From the NCBI GenBank assembly GCA_902601705.1, contig CACKNV010000003.1, positions 1 to 64,000 of the forward strand: a stretch of DNA of 64,000 bases. Direction: 5' to 3'. This stretch comes from an uncultured Pelagibacteraceae bacterium (GTDB lineage: Bacteria > Pseudomonadota > Alphaproteobacteria > Pelagibacterales > Pelagibacteraceae). The notes under the pieces were generated by a model, which worked only from the letters and a program-made list of their open reading frames with translations, did not search any database and was not told the origin of the DNA. Shown piece after piece: positions 40,392 to 50,218 of this stretch; within the stretch, counting starts at the first letter, position 1, and each line of letters starts with the position of its first letter. The translations under genes were made by a program, and so were the position numbers.

Positions 40392-40991
40392 TTATCTAGG
40401 AGATCTTTTAGAAAGTATTCTTTGTAGGGTTCTTCTGTGCATTTTGAGTCGTCTAGCTGTTTCAGAGACATTTCTATTACACAACTCAAATACACGGTGT
40501 ATATGCTCCCACTTAACTCTATCAGCAGACATAGGGTTTTCTGGTGGTCTTGCTTTGGACTCAGGTGAAGCTAACAATGCCGACTCGACATCATCAGCAT
40601 CTACAGGCTTAGCTATATAATCTATTGCGCCTGCTTTAACAGCTGCTACAGCTGTAGGTAGATTCCCGTATCCCGTTAACATAACTATTCTTGAGTCATT
40701 CTTAATTTTTGATAGCTCCTTAACTACATCTAAACCATTACCGTCTTCGAGCCTAAGATCAACACAAGCAAACCCTGGAGGTGTGTGTTTTACTATATTA
40801 AGTCCCTCAGCCACCGTTTTAGCCTCTTTTACTTGAAAACCCTTCTTTTCCATGGCTCTTGCAAGCCTGCCTCTAAGAGGGTCATCATCATCTAATATAA
40901 GCAGAGTTTTATCCTCAAAATCGGATAAATTTAGCTGCTCTGGCATATTTTTTTGTGCTCTCATGCATACAGATATAGGCACTGTGGACAT
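40392..40991 (-). CDS. regA: Redox response regulator RegA/PrrA
   Basis: A 199-residue response regulator: receiver domain with phosphoacceptor Asp78 in ACVDLRLEDGNGL and Lys in YIAKP, then a Fis-type helix-turn-helix ending MHRRTLQRILSKRSPR, which is almost invariant in alphaproteobacterial RegA/ActR/PrrA. It controls respiration and redox balance under the kinase RegB, encoded at 44225-45511. The start could be ATG 40991 or an inner Met near residue 16 (MPEQLNLSDFEDK). It is divergent from the polyamine operon. Confidence 0.9.
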   Translation of the reverse strand: MSTVPISVCMRAQKNMPEQLNLSDFEDKTLLILDDDDPLRGRLARAMEKKGFQVKEAKTVAEGLNIVKHTPPGFACVDLRLEDGNGLDVVKELSKIKNDSRIVMLTGYGNLPTAVAAVKAGAIDYIAKPVDADDVESALLASPESKARPPENPMSADRVKWEHIHRVFELCNRNVSETARRLKMHRRTLQRILSKRSPR

Positions 40992-41035
40992 AATTTCAAC
41001 AGCTTAAATTGGCTTTTTTTTCTTTACATAAAGTC

Positions 41036-41072
41036 AAAAAAACCTTAAACGCAAATTAATCAAGGTTTTTTT
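41036..41072 (+). terminator. Terminator-like hairpin in the leader of the polyamine operon
   Basis: AAAAAAACCTT at 41036-41046 pairs with AAGGTTTTTTT at 41062-41072 around a 15-base loop. It has the form of an intrinsic terminator in either direction. It lies between two divergent genes (regA and speC-like), where no gene end needs it. An attenuator or small-RNA end is therefore possible. Confidence 0.55.
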
Positions 41073-41122
41073 TACTAAATTTTTTAAAAAACCTTTGTGT
41101 AAACTAACGGGGGACACATGAA

Positions 41123-42304
41123 ATGCGAAAATTTAAAACAGTTAACGAATTAGTTAACTCACTAAAACCAGATTATCCCGTATATTGCATACGGCCAAAC
41201 GAGATTAAAAAATCCGTGAATTTTTTCAAAGAGAATTTTCCAGGGAAAATTCTTTATGCTGTAAAAACTAATCCACATGAGAAAATTATTAAGCAAATAA
41301 TTGCTAATGGAATTGAAGAATTTGATGTTGCTTCTCTTAATGAAATAAAATTAATAAAAAAAATTAATACCAAAGCAAAGCTTCATTTTATGCATACTGT
41401 AAAATGTAAAGAAAGCATTTCTTCAGCTTACTTTAATTATGGTGTTAAAAGTTTTTCATTAGATACTAAGGATGAATTAAGAAAAATTTTGGATGCTACC
41501 AATCAAGCAAAAGATTTAGAATTATTTGTAAGAATTGCAATTTCAAACGAGCATGCAGAAATTGATCTATCAAGAAAATTTGGAGCATTGCCATCTGAAG
41601 CATTAGGTTTAGTAAGGTTATGTAAAGAACATTCAAAGAAATTAGGAATTAGTTTTCATGTTGGTTCTCAATGTATGCATAAAATTTCTTATTCAAAAGG
41701 AATTAAAGAAATAGGAAGTATAATTAAAAAAACAAAAATAATTCCTGATACAATAAATGTTGGAGGGGGATTCCCTTCTTTATATCCAGATTTAAATCCT
41801 GAACCGCTAATTAATTATATTAATGAAATTAAAAAAGAACTACACAATCTTAAACTTGAGTCTTTACCAGAGATAATTTGTGAACCTGGTAGAGCTATTG
41901 TTGCAGAGAGTGGATCAGCGATAGTTAAGGTAATTTTAAGAAAAAAAAATAATCTTTATATAAACGATGGAACATATGGTTCTTTATTTGATGCTGGTGC
42001 TCCAAACTTTGTATTACCATCAAAGATGATCACAGATGGGAGAATTCAATCAAAAAAATTGACAGCATTTAGTTTTTTTGGTCCAACTTGTGATGGATTA
42101 GATTTCATGAAGGGCCCTTTTTTATTACCAAATAATATTAAAGAAGGCGATTACATTGAATTAGGTCAATTAGGAGCTTACAGTTTAACTTTTAGAACAA
42201 ATTTTAACGGATTTTACTCAAACGAAATTCATGAATTAAGTGATAAACCAATTATGTCTCTTTACGATGAAACAAAAGATAAAGTTGGTTCTTTAGTAGC
42301 TTAA
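41123..42304 (+). CDS. Fold type III PLP decarboxylase (ornithine/arginine-type)
   Basis: A 393-residue alanine-racemase-fold decarboxylase. PLP binds Lys48 in ILYAVKTNPHEKII. The active-site Cys323 is in FFGPTCDGLDFMKGP, and the phosphate-binding glycine loop is VGGGFPSLYPD. Known members decarboxylate ornithine, lysine, arginine, diaminopimelate or carboxynorspermidine; substrate cannot be told safely. It starts the operon with the DHS-like and agmatinase-like genes, so arginine to agmatine or ornithine to putrescine both fit. GGGGG nine bases upstream is the ribosome site. Confidence 0.85.
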   Translation: MRKFKTVNELVNSLKPDYPVYCIRPNEIKKSVNFFKENFPGKILYAVKTNPHEKIIKQIIANGIEEFDVASLNEIKLIKKINTKAKLHFMHTVKCKESISSAYFNYGVKSFSLDTKDELRKILDATNQAKDLELFVRIAISNEHAEIDLSRKFGALPSEALGLVRLCKEHSKKLGISFHVGSQCMHKISYSKGIKEIGSIIKKTKIIPDTINVGGGFPSLYPDLNPEPLINYINEIKKELHNLKLESLPEIICEPGRAIVAESGSAIVKVILRKKNNLYINDGTYGSLFDAGAPNFVLPSKMITDGRIQSKKLTAFSFFGPTCDGLDFMKGPFLLPNNIKEGDYIELGQLGAYSLTFRTNFNGFYSNEIHELSDKPIMSLYDETKDKVGSLVA

Positions 42305-43353
42305 TGGATAAAAAAGATAGTTCCAAAATTGGGCACAACAAAAAATCTCTTCTTAAAAAACCAGTAGAGCATATTGATATTAAATCTTTTGATGCTAGAA
42401 AAATTATAGAAGGAATGGCAAAAATGTCCTTTACTTCTAGAGATACAGCTAGAGCAGCGGATATTTTTAATGAGATGCTTAAAGATAAAGATTGTTCAAT
42501 TTTTTTAACCTTGGCAGGCTCAACATCTGCTGGTGGCTGTATGAATCTATACACTGATTTAGTAAAGCACAATATGGTCGATGCGATTGTAGCAACTGGC
42601 GCTTCAATAATTGATATGGATTTTTTTGAAGCATTAGGTTTTAAACATTATCAGGGTTCTCAATTTCAAGATGATAATGAACTACGTAATAACTATATAG
42701 ATAGAATTTATGATACTTATATTGATGAAGAAGAACTGCAGGCATGTGATCAAAAAATTTGCGATATTGCTAACACGCTTGAACCTAGGTCATATACTTC
42801 GAGAGAATTTATCAAAGAATTAGGGAAATACTTAAAGAGTAAAGGAAAAAAAAAAGACTCCTTAATCGAAGCTGCCTATGACAATGATGTTCCAATATTC
42901 TGCCCAGCTTTTACAGATAGTTCTGCTGGTTTTGGATTAGTCATGCATCAAGAACAAAATCCAAACAAGCATTTAACGATAGACTCAATTCGAGAGTTTA
43001 GAGAATTAACTGAGATTAAATTAAAATCTAAACAATCTGGTCTATTAATGATTGGTGGAGGTGTACCAAAAAATTTTATTCAAGATACAGTTGTTTGTGC
43101 AGAATTATTGGGTAAAAAAGTGGACATGCATAAATATGCTATACAAATAACAGTCGCTGATACACGCGATGGTGCATGTAGTAGTTCGACATTAAAGGAA
43201 GCTAGTTCATGGGGAAAAGTAGATACTACAAAAGAGCAAATGGTTTTTGCCGAAGCTACAAGTGTATTGCCATTAATTGCTAGCGATGCGTATCATCGAA
43301 AAAATTGGAAGAATAGAGAAAAGAGAAGTTTTTCAAAAGTTTTTAAATCATAA
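42304..43353 (+). CDS. Deoxyhypusine synthase homologue (probable spermidine/homospermidine-type enzyme)
   Basis: A 349-residue protein of the deoxyhypusine synthase family, NAD-dependent aminobutyl transferases. The conserved Trp-Gly-Lys is present (Trp303, Lys305), as are Glu299 and GGGVPKNFIQDTV. From memory of the human enzyme, His288 and Asp316, which bind spermidine, are replaced by Asn257 and Cys292. Bacteria lack eIF5A, so the role is probably polyamine synthesis with a small-molecule acceptor. The ATG overlaps the decarboxylase stop (TAATG). Confidence 0.8.
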   Translation: MDKKDSSKIGHNKKSLLKKPVEHIDIKSFDARKIIEGMAKMSFTSRDTARAADIFNEMLKDKDCSIFLTLAGSTSAGGCMNLYTDLVKHNMVDAIVATGASIIDMDFFEALGFKHYQGSQFQDDNELRNNYIDRIYDTYIDEEELQACDQKICDIANTLEPRSYTSREFIKELGKYLKSKGKKKDSLIEAAYDNDVPIFCPAFTDSSAGFGLVMHQEQNPNKHLTIDSIREFRELTEIKLKSKQSGLLMIGGGVPKNFIQDTVVCAELLGKKVDMHKYAIQITVADTRDGACSSSTLKEASSWGKVDTTKEQMVFAEATSVLPLIASDAYHRKNWKNREKRSFSKVFKS

Positions 43354-44238
43354 ATGGAATATCTAAGTCAAAAAAAAGGTTTTTTAGGTTTAGATGCTGT
43401 GCTTAATAAAAATCCAAAAGTTGTTGTTGTCCCTTTTGGTTTGGAGAAAACTGTAAGTTATGGTGGCGGAACTAAAAATGGTCCAAAGGAAATTATAAAG
43501 GCTTCACATCAAGTTGAATTATTTGATGAAGAGTTAAAAAAAGAACCTTACAAAGAAATAGGAATTAAAACTATAAAGCCTTTTGCAATAAAAAAAGAAA
43601 TCAAAAAAGCTCTAGACCAACTATCTAATATTAATAAAGAAATAATTAAAGAAAATAAGTTTCCATTAGTATTAGGAGGAGAGCATTCTTTAACTCCTGG
43701 TTCTATCAAACCTTTTACAAATAAATTTGACAATTTAACTCTACTTCATTTTGATGCTCACGCAGATCTGAGGGATAGTTATCAAGGAGAAAAGTTTTCA
43801 CACGCATCTACAATAAAACGATGCTTAGATTTTAATAATGTCAATGTTGTTTCAATTGGTATTAGAAATTTATCTAATTCTGAAATGAATTTTTATAATT
43901 ATAATAGAGATAAAATACAAATATTTTGGGGCAAAGACAAAAAAAATTACGATATTAATAAAATTGGAAAAATCTTTAAAAATAAAACTGTTTACATTAC
44001 TTTTGACGTAGATGGCTTTGATGCTAGTGTAATGCCAGCTACTGGTACACCCGAACCTGGAGGCCTTCTTTGGGAAGATGTTTTGCCAATTATTAAAAAA
44101 GTTTGCCAAGTATCAAATGTGGTAGGAGCAGATATAAATGAATTAGCTCCAATTAAAAACTTTAACTCTTATAATTTTTTAGTAGCTAAATTAGCTTATA
44201 AAATTTTATCTTATACTTTCGAGTTTAAGAATTTGTAA
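43354..44238 (+). CDS. speB: Agmatinase-type ureohydrolase
   Basis: A 294-residue dimanganese hydrolase of the arginase/agmatinase family. Metal ligands are His111 (LVLGGEHSL), Asp134, His136 and Asp138 (HFDAHADLR), and Asp218 and Asp220 (TFDVDGFDA), with the closing ATGTPEPGG loop. It would release urea from agmatine (or another guanidino compound) to give putrescine. It starts directly after the DHS-like gene. Overlaps the convergent regB by 14 bases. Confidence 0.87.
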   Translation: MEYLSQKKGFLGLDAVLNKNPKVVVVPFGLEKTVSYGGGTKNGPKEIIKASHQVELFDEELKKEPYKEIGIKTIKPFAIKKEIKKALDQLSNINKEIIKENKFPLVLGGEHSLTPGSIKPFTNKFDNLTLLHFDAHADLRDSYQGEKFSHASTIKRCLDFNNVNVVSIGIRNLSNSEMNFYNYNRDKIQIFWGKDKKNYDINKIGKIFKNKTVYITFDVDGFDASVMPATGTPEPGGLLWEDVLPIIKKVCQVSNVVGADINELAPIKNFNSYNFLVAKLAYKILSYTFEFKNL

Positions 44239-45511
44239 AACTATTAGAAGACCAAGTTAAAATTACTAATGCACCTCCTAAATCACTATTTCTTCTAAAC
44301 GCTAATTTTGCACCTTTTCTTTCTAATAAAGTTTTACCCAAGAAACTTCCAAGACCAAGACCAGAATTAGAATTAAGTTCTTTTGATTTAGACTTAATAT
44401 ACGGTTCTCCTATTTTTTCTATAATATCTTCTGGTATACCTGGCCCGTCATCATTAATTTTTATCTCAATAATTTTTTGGTCACTCTTTAAGTTGATTTG
44501 AACTTTACTCTTTGAAAACTTCACAGCATTACCTATAAAATTTCTTAGGCCATAAATCATCTCGGGTGTCCTTCGTATGGATATTTTATTTTTATCATTA
44601 TCGACTATAAGTTCGATATTTTTTGATGAGGTTTCTTGAAAAGAGTCTATGATTTCTAAGAGTAAGTCCTCAAATTTGATTAAGCTTAAGAAATTATCTT
44701 CCTCTATTTGTTTTTTTGAAATCTTTTTTAATATTTCACTACATCTTCTAGTTTGACTTATGAGCAAATCAATATCTTTAGAATACTCTTGATCATTTCC
44801 AATTTCTTTTTTTAACTCTTTAGCCACAACAGTAATTGTGGCTAAAGGCGTTCCTAAGGAATGAGCGGCAGCGGCAGCTTGTCCTCCTAATGACTCCAAC
44901 TCATATTCCTTAGAAATTACCTCTTGTAATTTGTTTAATGCTTCCGATCTTTTTTTTGTTTCACCTGCAAATCTAATTCCGAAATAGCTTAAGAAAATTA
45001 ATCCAATCAAAATTGAGATAAGTATCCCTATCGTATAATAATTCGGGACTGCAAAAATATTAGAGTCTAATCCAGGTAAAGGTAAATGAGTGAATGAAAT
45101 AACAAATAATAAAAGAGAGGTTATTAGCCCCAATATAATTGTTGTACCCATGCTAAGAAATGTAGAAGAAACAATTGTCGGTATAATCATCAATATTGAA
45201 AAGGGATTTAAAATACCCCCAGTTAAGTATAAAAGAGCACTTAGTTGAAATAAGTCGTATAAAAGAAACAATGAAGCATAAGTATCTTTTAATTGATTAA
45301 CTTTTACTCTAAATTGGAGAAACAAATTTGTTAATAATCCAACGAAAATTACAATGATACTCTCTTTAAGTGGAAATTTTAAATCGAGATAAAAAAAAAC
45401 GATATTAACTGCAATAAATTGACCAAAAATAGCTATATATCTTAATATTGTAAGAGTATTTTTATCTAAATTTAAATTCTCTTTTGTTCTAAAGAGAGTT
45501 GCAAAATCCAT
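44225..45511 (-). CDS. regB: Redox sensor histidine kinase RegB/PrrB
   Basis: A 428-residue kinase with about six membrane helices in the first 185 residues. The GGILNPF motif near 98-104 matches the quinone-binding site of RegB. The H-box is AAAAHSLGTPLATI with His217, and Cys257 in QTRRCSEIL corresponds to the redox-active cysteine. ATPase boxes end GLGLGSFLGKTLLE. It phosphorylates RegA (40392-40991). I use ATG at 45511; TTG at 45517 is possible. It follows gyrB by 7 bases. Confidence 0.9.
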   Translation of the reverse strand: MDFATLFRTKENLNLDKNTLTILRYIAIFGQFIAVNIVFFYLDLKFPLKESIIVIFVGLLTNLFLQFRVKVNQLKDTYASLFLLYDLFQLSALLYLTGGILNPFSILMIIPTIVSSTFLSMGTTIILGLITSLLLFVISFTHLPLPGLDSNIFAVPNYYTIGILISILIGLIFLSYFGIRFAGETKKRSEALNKLQEVISKEYELESLGGQAAAAAHSLGTPLATITVVAKELKKEIGNDQEYSKDIDLLISQTRRCSEILKKISKKQIEEDNFLSLIKFEDLLLEIIDSFQETSSKNIELIVDNDKNKISIRRTPEMIYGLRNFIGNAVKFSKSKVQINLKSDQKIIEIKINDDGPGIPEDIIEKIGEPYIKSKSKELNSNSGLGLGSFLGKTLLERKGAKLAFRRNSDLGGALVILTWSSNSFTNS

Positions 45512-45518
45512 AATCAAA

Positions 45519-47591
<2,073 letters not shown>

Positions 47592-47708
47592 TTATTATAA
47601 CATTATTTCAATAGAATATAAAATCACTGTAGACCATAATGACTTAAAACTATTAAGTAGCAACAATTATAGAGCTAAAAATAAAAAAAAAATTGAAAAT
47701 TAATAATT

Positions 47709-48824
47709 TTAGATTTTCATTGGCATTATGACATAATAACTATTTTTGTCAGCAATATCCTCAATTAGAACAGGTGAAACTGAGTCTTTTAAATTAATCC
47801 TCAAATTTTTATCTTCAACTTCAGAAGCAATATCAATCAGGTATTTTGAATTAAAACTTATATTTAAATTTTCAGAACTAAATTCAGCTTTTATTTTTTC
47901 ATTTCCTTCCCCGGAATTTGCGCTATTAACTGAGAGCTGAATATTATCTTTGTAAATTGATAATTTGACACCTTCTTTTCTATCAAGTGAAACACTGGCA
48001 ACTCTCTCAATAGAGCTTATAAAATCTTTTGATGATACGATCAATGTTTTATCATTATTTGTTGGCACAACTTTTTTATAATCTGGAAATTTTCCATCTA
48101 TAACTTTTGATATTAATTTCATATTGCCTAAAGAAAACTTTACCTTGTTATCACTGGTTTGCATTAATAGTTTTTCTGCTGTTTCTGATAAAAGGGAACA
48201 TAGTTGGAAAACTGTTTTTCTCGGTAATATCAAAGAACTAAAATCTGTTGTATTTTCTATTTCTAAGCTACTTGAAGATAACCTATGACTATCTGTTGCC
48301 ACTCCAGTAAGAAAATTTCTACCGTGAGCCTCTGTTAGATGCAAAAATATGCCATTTAAATAATGTCTGGTATCATCATTTGATATTGATATTCTTGTTT
48401 TATTTAAGAGTTTGAGAAACCTTTGATTGTTTAAAGAAATTTCTTGGCCTTCAAATTCGTCTGCAAAAGTAGGAAAATTATCAGTAGGAAGACATAAAAG
48501 ATTAAAGTCTGCATTTTCACTTCTTAAACTAAGTTTATTTTCTGATTTTAAATTAAAATTTAACTCTGCATTAGATGAAATTTTTCTTAAAATATCATAA
48601 AGTATTGCTGCGGATGTAGTGGTGCTTCCCTCCTTTATAATTTTAACATCGCTAACTTCATCATAAAAGATAATATCAAGATCTGTTGCTATAATTGATA
48701 ATTTATTATTTTTAAGTTGTAATAAAACATTTGAGAGTATCGGAAGAGTATTTTTTTTTTCAACTACACCTTGAACAAAATTTAATGATTTTAATAAAAT
48801 ATCTCTTTTTACAACAAATTGCAT
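47709..48824 (-). CDS. dnaN: DNA polymerase III beta clamp
   Basis: A 371-residue sliding clamp of three similar domains. The N-terminal MQFVVKRDILLKSLNFVQGVVEKKNTLPILSNV and the C-terminal SVSPVLIEDIADKNSYYVIMPMK (family-typical ending in MPM plus a hydrophobic) are diagnostic. It tethers polymerase III to DNA. It lies two bases after dnaA's stop, so dnaA and dnaN are one unit. No recF follows; gyrB is next after a 132-base gap that contains no recognisable gene. Confidence 0.96.
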   Translation of the reverse strand: MQFVVKRDILLKSLNFVQGVVEKKNTLPILSNVLLQLKNNKLSIIATDLDIIFYDEVSDVKIIKEGSTTTSAAILYDILRKISSNAELNFNLKSENKLSLRSENADFNLLCLPTDNFPTFADEFEGQEISLNNQRFLKLLNKTRISISNDDTRHYLNGIFLHLTEAHGRNFLTGVATDSHRLSSSSLEIENTTDFSSLILPRKTVFQLCSLLSETAEKLLMQTSDNKVKFSLGNMKLISKVIDGKFPDYKKVVPTNNDKTLIVSSKDFISSIERVASVSLDRKEGVKLSIYKDNIQLSVNSANSGEGNEKIKAEFSSENLNISFNSKYLIDIASEVEDKNLRINLKDSVSPVLIEDIADKNSYYVIMPMKI

Positions 48825-48826
48825 GG

Positions 48827-50218
48827 TTATTGTTCTAATAATAAACTTTTAATCTGACTGATGTTTTTTTTCATTTCATCGTCCTGTTCAGATAGTCTAG
48901 TAATAGTTTTAACAGCATGTATAACAGTTGTGTGATCACGATTAGCAAATCTTCTCCCTATCTCTGGTAAGGATCTAGTAGTCATTTTTTTTGCCAAATA
49001 CATAGCTATTTGTCTTGGCCTTGCTAAAGGCCTTGATCTTCTCTGTGAAAGCATTTCACTTAAAGCTATATTAAAATAATTAGAGACAATATTTTGGATC
49101 TTATCAACAGTTATTACTCTTATTTGACTAAAAACGTCTTTTAAAATATTTTTACAATCACTTATAGTTAAGTTTTTGTTGTGTACTCTGCTAAACGCAA
49201 TCACTCTATTGAGGACGCCTATTAGCTCCCTTATATTTGTTTTACTTTCACTAGCTATATAAGCAATTACTTCATCACTAAGATTTATATTTTCTTTAAA
49301 CTGACTTTGAATTTCTTCTATTTTCTTTTTTATAATTTTAATTTTTAGTTCTGTATCTGGTTCATCGATGTCAACTACTAATCCACCAGCTAATCTGGAT
49401 TTAATTCTATCTTGAATTCTGTCTAGTTTCATGGGTGGACGATCTGATGATATTATAATTTGCGAACCCTTATCCATAAGACTATTAAAAGTATGAAAAA
49501 ATTCCTCCTGCAAACTTTCTTTTCCGCTAATAAATTGGATATCATCAATTATAAAAACTGAGGATTTTCTAAAAAAATCTTTAAAATTTACCATATCATT
49601 TTTTTTTATGGATTTAATAAAATGATACATGAATCTTTCTGCAGAAATAAACATAACGTTATTGCTATTCTGGAGGGATAGGCCAATAGCGTTTAAAAGG
49701 TGTGTTTTTCCCAAACCAACGCCGCCGCATACATATAACGGATTATATCTTGATACATGTTCACAAACCTTTTTTGAATAAGATAACGCAATATCATTAC
49801 TTTTTCCCTGTATGAAGCTGTCAAAGTTTAAACTTGGGTTAAGTCGATTATAATTTAAAATTGAGTCCTTTATTTCAGTTACTTTATTGAGTTCGTCTAT
49901 TTTTATAAATTCTTGATTTTGTTTATTTTCCTCAATAATTTTAAATTCAATCCTATTCAAACTAAGTTTAAAACTTTTAACTTGCTCAAGTATTTTGTCT
50001 AAGTATCTTGATACTATCCAATCTCTAAAAAATCTAGTCGGCACACCAAGAATTAAATAGTCGTTGTATTCTTTGACTAAAGAAATTTTTTGTAACCAGC
50101 TATTATAAATTTCATTACCAAAAGTTTTTTTAAATGCGCTTTGTATATCTTCCCAATTTAATGTTTTTTCTTCTTCAGAAATGAATGCGTTTTGTTTTTT
50201 TATATTATTATTATCCAT
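48827..50218 (-). CDS. dnaA: Chromosomal replication initiator DnaA
   Basis: A 463-residue AAA+ initiator. Walker A is GGVGLGKTHLL, Walker B is VFIIDDIQFI, and the DNA-binding domain carries the signature RDHTTVIHAVKTI with LARPRQIAMYLAKK. It binds DnaA boxes and opens oriC. It is transcribed with dnaN. The 217-base region upstream contains no obvious TTATNCACA box, so the origin is not evident here. Confidence 0.97.
   Translation of the reverse strand: MDNNNIKKQNAFISEEEKTLNWEDIQSAFKKTFGNEIYNSWLQKISLVKEYNDYLILGVPTRFFRDWIVSRYLDKILEQVKSFKLSLNRIEFKIIEENKQNQEFIKIDELNKVTEIKDSILNYNRLNPSLNFDSFIQGKSNDIALSYSKKVCEHVSRYNPLYVCGGVGLGKTHLLNAIGLSLQNSNNVMFISAERFMYHFIKSIKKNDMVNFKDFFRKSSVFIIDDIQFISGKESLQEEFFHTFNSLMDKGSQIIISSDRPPMKLDRIQDRIKSRLAGGLVVDIDEPDTELKIKIIKKKIEEIQSQFKENINLSDEVIAYIASESKTNIRELIGVLNRVIAFSRVHNKNLTISDCKNILKDVFSQIRVITVDKIQNIVSNYFNIALSEMLSQRRSRPLARPRQIAMYLAKKMTTRSLPEIGRRFANRDHTTVIHAVKTITRLSEQDDEMKKNISQIKSLLLEQ

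Follow-up and report, generated by a model that had tools for sequence, protein, structure and literature searches.

A 64,000-nucleotide stretch of DNA from an uncultured Pelagibacteraceae bacterium (contig CACKNV010000003.1, positions 1 to 64,000), hereafter the window, carries a three-gene polyamine operon whose middle gene encodes a homologue of deoxyhypusine synthase (DHS). The features of the locus are listed in Table 1. The operon reported in the first-pass annotation is real: its three open reading frames (ORFs) are on one strand, are tightly packed and have the expected Pfam domains. Base 42304 is shared by the decarboxylase gene and the gene of the DHS homologue, and the agmatinase gene starts at the base directly after the stop codon of the DHS homologue. 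The genome (1,079,329 bases in 15 contigs, 94.85% complete) showed one DHS homologue in a search with the window protein.

Table 1. Features of the polyamine locus in the window (PLP, pyridoxal phosphate; AR, alanine racemase)
Feature	Coordinates	Strand	Evidence
PLP decarboxylase, AR-fold, 393 aa; most likely arginine decarboxylase (agmatine source)	41123..42304	+	Pfam Orn_Arg_deC_N, Orn_DAP_Arg_deC
DHS homologue, 349 aa; most likely caldomycin synthase (agmatine homocoupling)	42304..43353	+	Pfam DS 333.9 bits; NF002699
Agmatinase-family ureohydrolase, 294 aa; most likely strips guanidino groups from caldomycin and/or agmatine	43354..44238	+	Pfam Arginase; TIGR01230
RegA/ActR-type regulator	40392-40991	opposite strand to operon	over NCBIfam cut-off
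RegB/ActS-type kinase	44225-45517	opposite strand to operon	over NCBIfam cut-off

The DHS homologue scored 584.9 bits against NF002699, the model of caldomycin synthase (CdmS), with a cut-off of 500. It missed NF001980, the model of SpeY-type homospermidine biosynthesis (192.4 vs. cut-off 450), and stayed below the cut-offs of the five DHS models TIGR00321, NF002006, NF002630, NF002294 and NF003052 (e.g., 236.7 vs. 304.25 bits). By its name, NF001980 appears to stand for Anabaena SpeY. A named SpeY comparator was sought on two cyanobacterial plasmids and none passed the NF001980 cut-off, so the comparison with SpeY rests on this score and on printed identities of 27–33% between CdmS and the SpeY, HSS and DHS proteins compared in PMC10981699. 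A scan of 84,980 species genomes with the DHS homologue gave at least 585 matches; the best 80 were kept, among them two Thermus species whose CdmS orthologues are 58% and 59% identical to it over 337–338 aa. CdmS of T. thermophilus (TTHA1570) joins two agmatines into caldomycin, uses agmatine only, leaves putrescine and spermidine untouched, and together with the ureohydrolase TtSpeBap yields homospermidine (PMC10981699). A tree was made from 71 of 147 rows; its three outgroup rows, which include G227 and G298 (both below the NF002699 cut-off and outside the agmatinase census), were very long branches, so only the branching inside the family was used. The alphaproteobacterial and Thermus rows fell together and away from the rows of Haloferax DHS and of two DHS homologues from other alphaproteobacteria. 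Judged from sequence, the DHS homologue belongs to the caldomycin-synthase family and is probably not a SpeY-type homospermidine synthase acting on putrescine.

The site residues were compared with human DHS and CdmS. E299, W303, K305, N257 and C292 sit where the first-pass annotation had placed them, and its mapping of N257 to His288 and of C292 to Asp316 holds in an alignment to human DHS that was counted by hand. The 369-residue PDB chain used is presumed to carry human DHS numbering. A docking model of CdmS names Ser67, Glu136, Asp143, Phe204, Leu286, Glu293 and Lys299, of which Phe204 and Leu286 are the two aligned site positions differing in properties from human DHS Asp243 and Asp316 (PMC10981699). 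With a constant shift of +6, these correspond to S73, E142, D149, F210, C292, E299 and K305 in the window protein; six of the seven are identical, and the seventh (L286 to C292) is non-acidic as in CdmS. Phe210 and Cys292 occupy the positions of the two human aspartates.

The same positions were counted in 142 other CdmS-family rows (20 from the genus, 24 from other alphaproteobacteria, 80 from named genomes or plasmids and 18 viral); L134 and L139 (a stop codon lies within the stretch taken), L186 (partial) and G013 (truncated gene) were left out. S73, E142, D149, N257, E299, W303 and K305 were invariant (142/142), and D205 and S293 were, like E299, W303 and K305, kept throughout the family. 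Position 210 was Phe in 127 rows, Ile in 13 (all viral) and Met in 2. Position 292 was Cys in 44/44 genus and class rows, 18/18 viral rows and 3/80 others, with Leu in the remaining 77. Haloferax DHS and the two other alphaproteobacterial DHS homologues all differ from the family at 73, 149, 210 and 257. Asn257 and Cys292 were therefore rejected as signs of a new activity, since Asn is family-wide and Cys is typical of the alphaproteobacterial and viral rows; they are marks of family and lineage. The AlphaFold2 model of the protein, built with 31 sequences, had a predicted local distance difference test score (pLDDT) of 91.0 and a predicted template modelling score (pTM) of 0.90, with residues 287–292 below pLDDT 50. 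Its best PDB matches were DHS structures (8put_A, TM 0.76/0.85, and many human DHS entries); the DHS fold and the catalytic Lys (K305) are both present.

The third gene exceeded the TIGR01230 (agmatinase) cut-off, with 200.5 vs. 174.3 bits, and carries the metal-site motifs GGEHS, DAHAD and DVDGFD. The decarboxylase reached the cut-off of none of the seven NCBIfam models that it matched. In vitro, the homologues from the clusters of Ca. Fonsibacter ubiquis and Ca. Pelagibacter ubique SCGC AAA797-I19 accept arginine as a substrate but neither ornithine nor lysine (PMC9992855), and the operon enzyme is most likely an arginine decarboxylase (ADC) as well.

We propose, with a probability of about 0.78, that the operon leads from arginine to agmatine, then to caldomycin and to homospermidine, through agmatine homocoupling and guanidinylated intermediates. 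The PLP decarboxylase would form agmatine from arginine, as expected from its assayed relatives, CdmS would couple two agmatines into caldomycin, and the agmatinase would take off two ureas to leave homospermidine. In sister genomes, agmatine-deiminase-family and N-carbamoylputrescine-amidase-like genes stand in the operon slot of the agmatinase gene. The activity of CdmS, cellular or phage, is predicted here. The earlier picture of a polyamine operon with a relative of DHS, which no DHS model scores above its cut-off, and with homospermidine as the likely end product is retained; its substrate and its chemistry, the transfer of aminobutyl groups to a diamine, are probably wrong, because the CdmS-family enzyme of Thermus uses agmatine only. 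If the protein is a caldomycin synthase, homospermidine is assembled in guanidinylated form, feeding and metabolite data need re-reading, and caldomycin should be sought. Caldomycin does not react with o-phthalaldehyde (PMC10981699), and it is absent from the compound list of PMC8437039.

The published reading forms putrescine first: agmatine from the ADC is turned into putrescine by the agmatinase, and two putrescines are then joined by the DHS homologue, working as a homospermidine synthase of the SpeY type. The clusters of Pelagibacter and Fonsibacter are so labelled (PMC9992855, Fig. 2 legend), and the route has been proposed for Zymomonas (PMC8594446). It needs the same three genes as the agmatine-first order, so gene content was rejected as a means of ordering the steps. 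Family membership and site residues favour agmatine first. The SpeY-type model was missed, the assayed Thermus enzyme does not act on putrescine, and Phe210 and Cys292 replace two acids of human DHS that CdmS also lacks; we consider the putrescine-first order unlikely. Of the pyruvoyl ADC genes studied, most have speY in their cluster, while those of pyruvoyl ornithine decarboxylase (ODC) were found together with speD/speE, casdh/casdc or hss (PMC10407285). This pattern also favours agmatine first, as expected if those 'SpeY' enzymes need agmatine. The SAR11 strain HTCC1062, which has the DHS homologue dys2, contains native homospermidine (PMC8437039), which fits the route through caldomycin. 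Several points weigh against that route. The gene set alone is just as compatible with the other order. Although dys2 is also present in HTCC7211, the native polyamine given for that strain is spermidine alone, and the authors concluded for both strains that homospermidine synthesis is not the primary role of dys2 (PMC8437039). Among the papers found, Thermus CdmS is the only enzyme of the family assayed with agmatine, and its guanidine-site residues come from docking, without a structure or mutants (PMC10981699).

A promiscuous DHS-like transferase, moving aminobutyl groups among spermidine, norspermidine, putrescine and agmatine in the salvage of imported polyamines, appears less probable still. 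SAR11 imports many polyamines, and HTCC7211 fed with norspermidine contained more spermidine and homospermidine, for which its authors left a role of Dys2 possible; the same authors preferred a reversible SpeE for salvage (PMC8437039), and the close packing of a dedicated decarboxylase gene with one for guanidine removal speaks for biosynthesis. Modification of a protein, as in a bacterial counterpart of deoxyhypusine formation, would suit the shared DHS fold, but the five DHS models were missed and the characterised homologue works on small molecules; we regard this as very improbable.

The census of relatives concerned the third step. In the genus, CdmS was found in 22 of 25 genomes, one of them with a truncated copy below the cut-off. 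Arginase-family genes without genes of the agmatine-deiminase family (PAD_porph) occurred in 13 of these 22 and PAD_porph without Arginase-family genes in the other 9; no genome had both or neither. The three CdmS-negative genus genomes (59, 83 and 62% complete) had neither an Arginase-family nor a PAD_porph gene. In all nine PAD_porph genomes, CdmS is directly followed by a nitrilase-like gene and then PAD_porph, before the RegB kinase gene. The agmatinase slot is held by nitrilase-like and agmatine-deiminase-family genes in L054-L063, from these nine relatives and one other family member (G418). The pair in L054 exceeded the Pfam cut-offs of CN_hydrolase and PAD_porph; the best NCBIfam names were N-carbamoylputrescine amidase and agmatine deiminase, both below cut-off. 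The operon decarboxylase adjoins CdmS in 21 of the 22 genomes, and in the remaining one the contig ends inside CdmS.

In the class, NF002699 matched in 27 of 387 genomes, 25 of them over the cut-off. Without the window's own genome, 14 of the 24 CdmS-positive genomes had an agmatinase over the TIGR01230 cut-off, 11 had PAD_porph and none had neither; one (G340) had both, or three if the weak sub-cut-off agmatinase matches of G092 and G273 are counted. All 46 CdmS-positive alphaproteobacterial genomes examined had an agmatinase- or agmatine-deiminase-family gene, rarely both. Among 16 order relatives without CdmS, 12 had Arginase-family genes, 11 had PAD_porph, 8 had both and 1 had neither, so the bare presence of such a gene tells little. 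The informative part is the nearly strict either/or pattern together with the shared operon slot in the genus. If the protein is a caldomycin synthase, carbamoylated intermediates are expected in the genomes with the deiminase/amidase version.

Spermidine probably has a separate route. The first-pass annotation had named canonical speE/speD genes, together with a loss of NAD-binding residues, as evidence against its route; on the speD/speE side, a SpeD-SpeE fusion of 346 aa is encoded in the same genome (L051:1004-2044, C6). Fusions of this kind from HTCC1062 and HTCC7211 were functional when expressed in E. coli (PMC11107197). The fusion gene is directly followed by an apparent nitrilase-family gene of 265 aa, named by eye.

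Two published systems are close to the operon. It resembles T. thermophilus CdmS and TtSpeBap (PMC10981699) in its sequence identity with CdmS orthologues from two further Thermus species, in all printed site residues but one and in the ureohydrolase partner; it differs in having Cys instead of Leu at the Asp316 position and in the arrangement of its genes as one operon, and its activity is a prediction. Clusters of the form ODC/ADC - DHS/SpeY - agmatinase, or agmatine iminohydrolase (AIH)/N-carbamoylputrescine amidohydrolase (NCPAH), have already been published for Ca. Pelagibacter and Ca. Fonsibacter, with the decarboxylase of relatives assayed as ADC (PMC9992855). The two clusters, one with agmatinase and the other with AIH/NCPAH, apparently represent the operon described here along with its variant third step. 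The DHS gene is labelled there as SpeY, homospermidine synthase, and the main-text portions, as distinct from the supplement, report no assay of that protein; the assignment to CdmS comes from the present analysis.

The new observation is a cassette of a SpeD homologue, CdmS and SpeB on viral contigs. In two scans of IMG/VR, a CdmS homologue was present on 19 distinct contigs, and in 18 of them (L203, L190-L202, L174, L175, L177 and L181) a SpeD homologue lies beside CdmS, together with SpeB on those that extend far enough. Near-copies occur among the 18 (CdmS of L190 and L203 is 100% alike). SpeB is split into two ORFs in L197 (8989-9845) and truncated in L181 and L195, where the contig stops; all three metal motifs were present in the 15 of 15 SpeB proteins checked, one of which runs to the contig end. 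Spermine_synth (SpeE) had no match in any of the 19 viral records, many of them fragments. The 18 contigs comprise 13 T4-like ones and 5 of a second type, with two gene orders. In the 13, the order is SpeD-CdmS-SpeB, and RegA-like and glycosyltransferase-like genes lie upstream in 12 of 13 and a sliding-clamp gene in 9 of 13 (by PHROGs on L185, the same contig as L203, and by BLAST on the rest). In L203 and L197, the two stretches reaching far enough, Hsp20 and T4-type DNA polymerase genes lie downstream. In the five others (36–128 kb), the order is CdmS-SpeB-SpeD; two of them were sampled in part, L211 showing a T4-type DNA polymerase and L212 a head-decoration match and a ribonucleotide reductase.

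For the two phage CdmS proteins tried, NF002699 was the best model, with 469.0 and 449.7 bits, below the cut-off of 500; the L185 copy had no PHROG match. The 12 viral rows used in the tree formed one clade (100/100) on a long branch next to the alphaproteobacteria (97/79), within a group also holding one Syntrophaceae sequence (99/100). This Syntrophaceae CdmS (L167:5001-6041) is 69% identical to the window protein, and horizontal transfer is possible. The nineteenth contig, L186, is a viral one of 4.6 kb with a host-like decarboxylase and CdmS (71% and 83%). Its phage-like part (phrog_455) passes into the decarboxylase gene midway, and the contig was set aside because it may be a chimera; a recombinant phage is the alternative. 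Among 50,697 GenBank phages, a set from which records very near the window's genome may be absent, tblastn with the window and phage proteins found no DHS/CdmS. No virus with DHS/SpeY turned up in a published BLASTP screen, and a search of open-access papers, judged by title and the start of the abstract and covering neither preprints nor most subscription journals, showed no report of a phage DHS/CdmS.

The substrate of the cassette SpeD was considered next to its relatives. Each of the two cassette SpeD proteins tried against the GenBank phages matched 11 pelagiphages and one uncultured Pelagivirus. HTVC201P, whose pyruvoyl SpeD homologue is an assayed ADC (PMC9992855), is among the phages matched, and no DHS/CdmS was found in any phage of that GenBank set. 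A Pro is completely conserved in bona fide S-adenosylmethionine decarboxylases (AdoMetDCs) and not in ADCs (PMC10407285). By our reading, this would be the Pro of H-T-[WF]-P-E, which is present in the three AdoMetDC-type rows aligned and is Asp in 18/18 cassette proteins. ADC activity is favoured, since SpeB adjoins and SpeE was not found in the viral records. ODC activity is possible, and the HTVC201P ADC itself falls in the ODC clade in PMC10407285. The clamp loader of L203 and the polymerase of L197 lack close counterparts among isolates, the best being Methylophilales phage Melnitz (62%) and a cyanophage (48%), respectively; a SAR11 host is therefore indicated by SpeD only.

On a slight balance of probability, we hold that two phage types, probably marine, carry a full three-gene route from arginine to homospermidine (SpeD-derived pyruvoyl ADC, caldomycin synthase and ureohydrolase) through a bis-guanidino intermediate, without free putrescine. 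Their CdmS would derive from a source resembling alphaproteobacteria, and the cassette would, in a host of SAR11 type, duplicate the window operon with a PLP-free decarboxylase. The marine origin is suggested because the cassette SpeD is akin to pelagiphage SpeD. Cellular SpeDA - SpeY - SpeB clusters, with SpeY as labelled there, have the same gene content (PMC10407285); those are from bacteria and archaea, whereas the present ones are from phages. The cassettes suggest that viruses can bring their own whole arginine-to-triamine route, and the phage need for polyamines thereby becomes directly testable with three small genes.

Other members and neighbours of the family were noted. CdmS-family genes 58% identical to the window gene product lie on plasmids of two Nostocaceae typed as conjugative (L089:7998-9041 and L090:5998-7041), one after an ornithine aminotransferase gene and the other after one whose annotation says no more than aminotransferase; the annotated neighbours shown (6–8 kb on each side, with incomplete gene tables) included neither a decarboxylase nor an agmatinase. 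In the class relative G227 (L088:6302-8142), a DHS homologue outside the CdmS family (26%) lies beside a distant agmatinase homologue (31%) and a gene that appears by eye to encode an aspartate aminotransferase (AAT)-fold decarboxylase.

Within 40392-45517 of the window, the operon splits the RegA/ActR regulator gene from the RegB/ActS kinase gene. The G+C content of the window is 25–36% (2-kb windows). This low value, the small genome and the match of the operon to the clusters of PMC9992855 suggest an alphaproteobacterium of SAR11 type. Apparent gyrB, dnaN and dnaA genes (45519-50218; named by eye from the sequence) adjoin the operon region, which may therefore lie near the replication origin.

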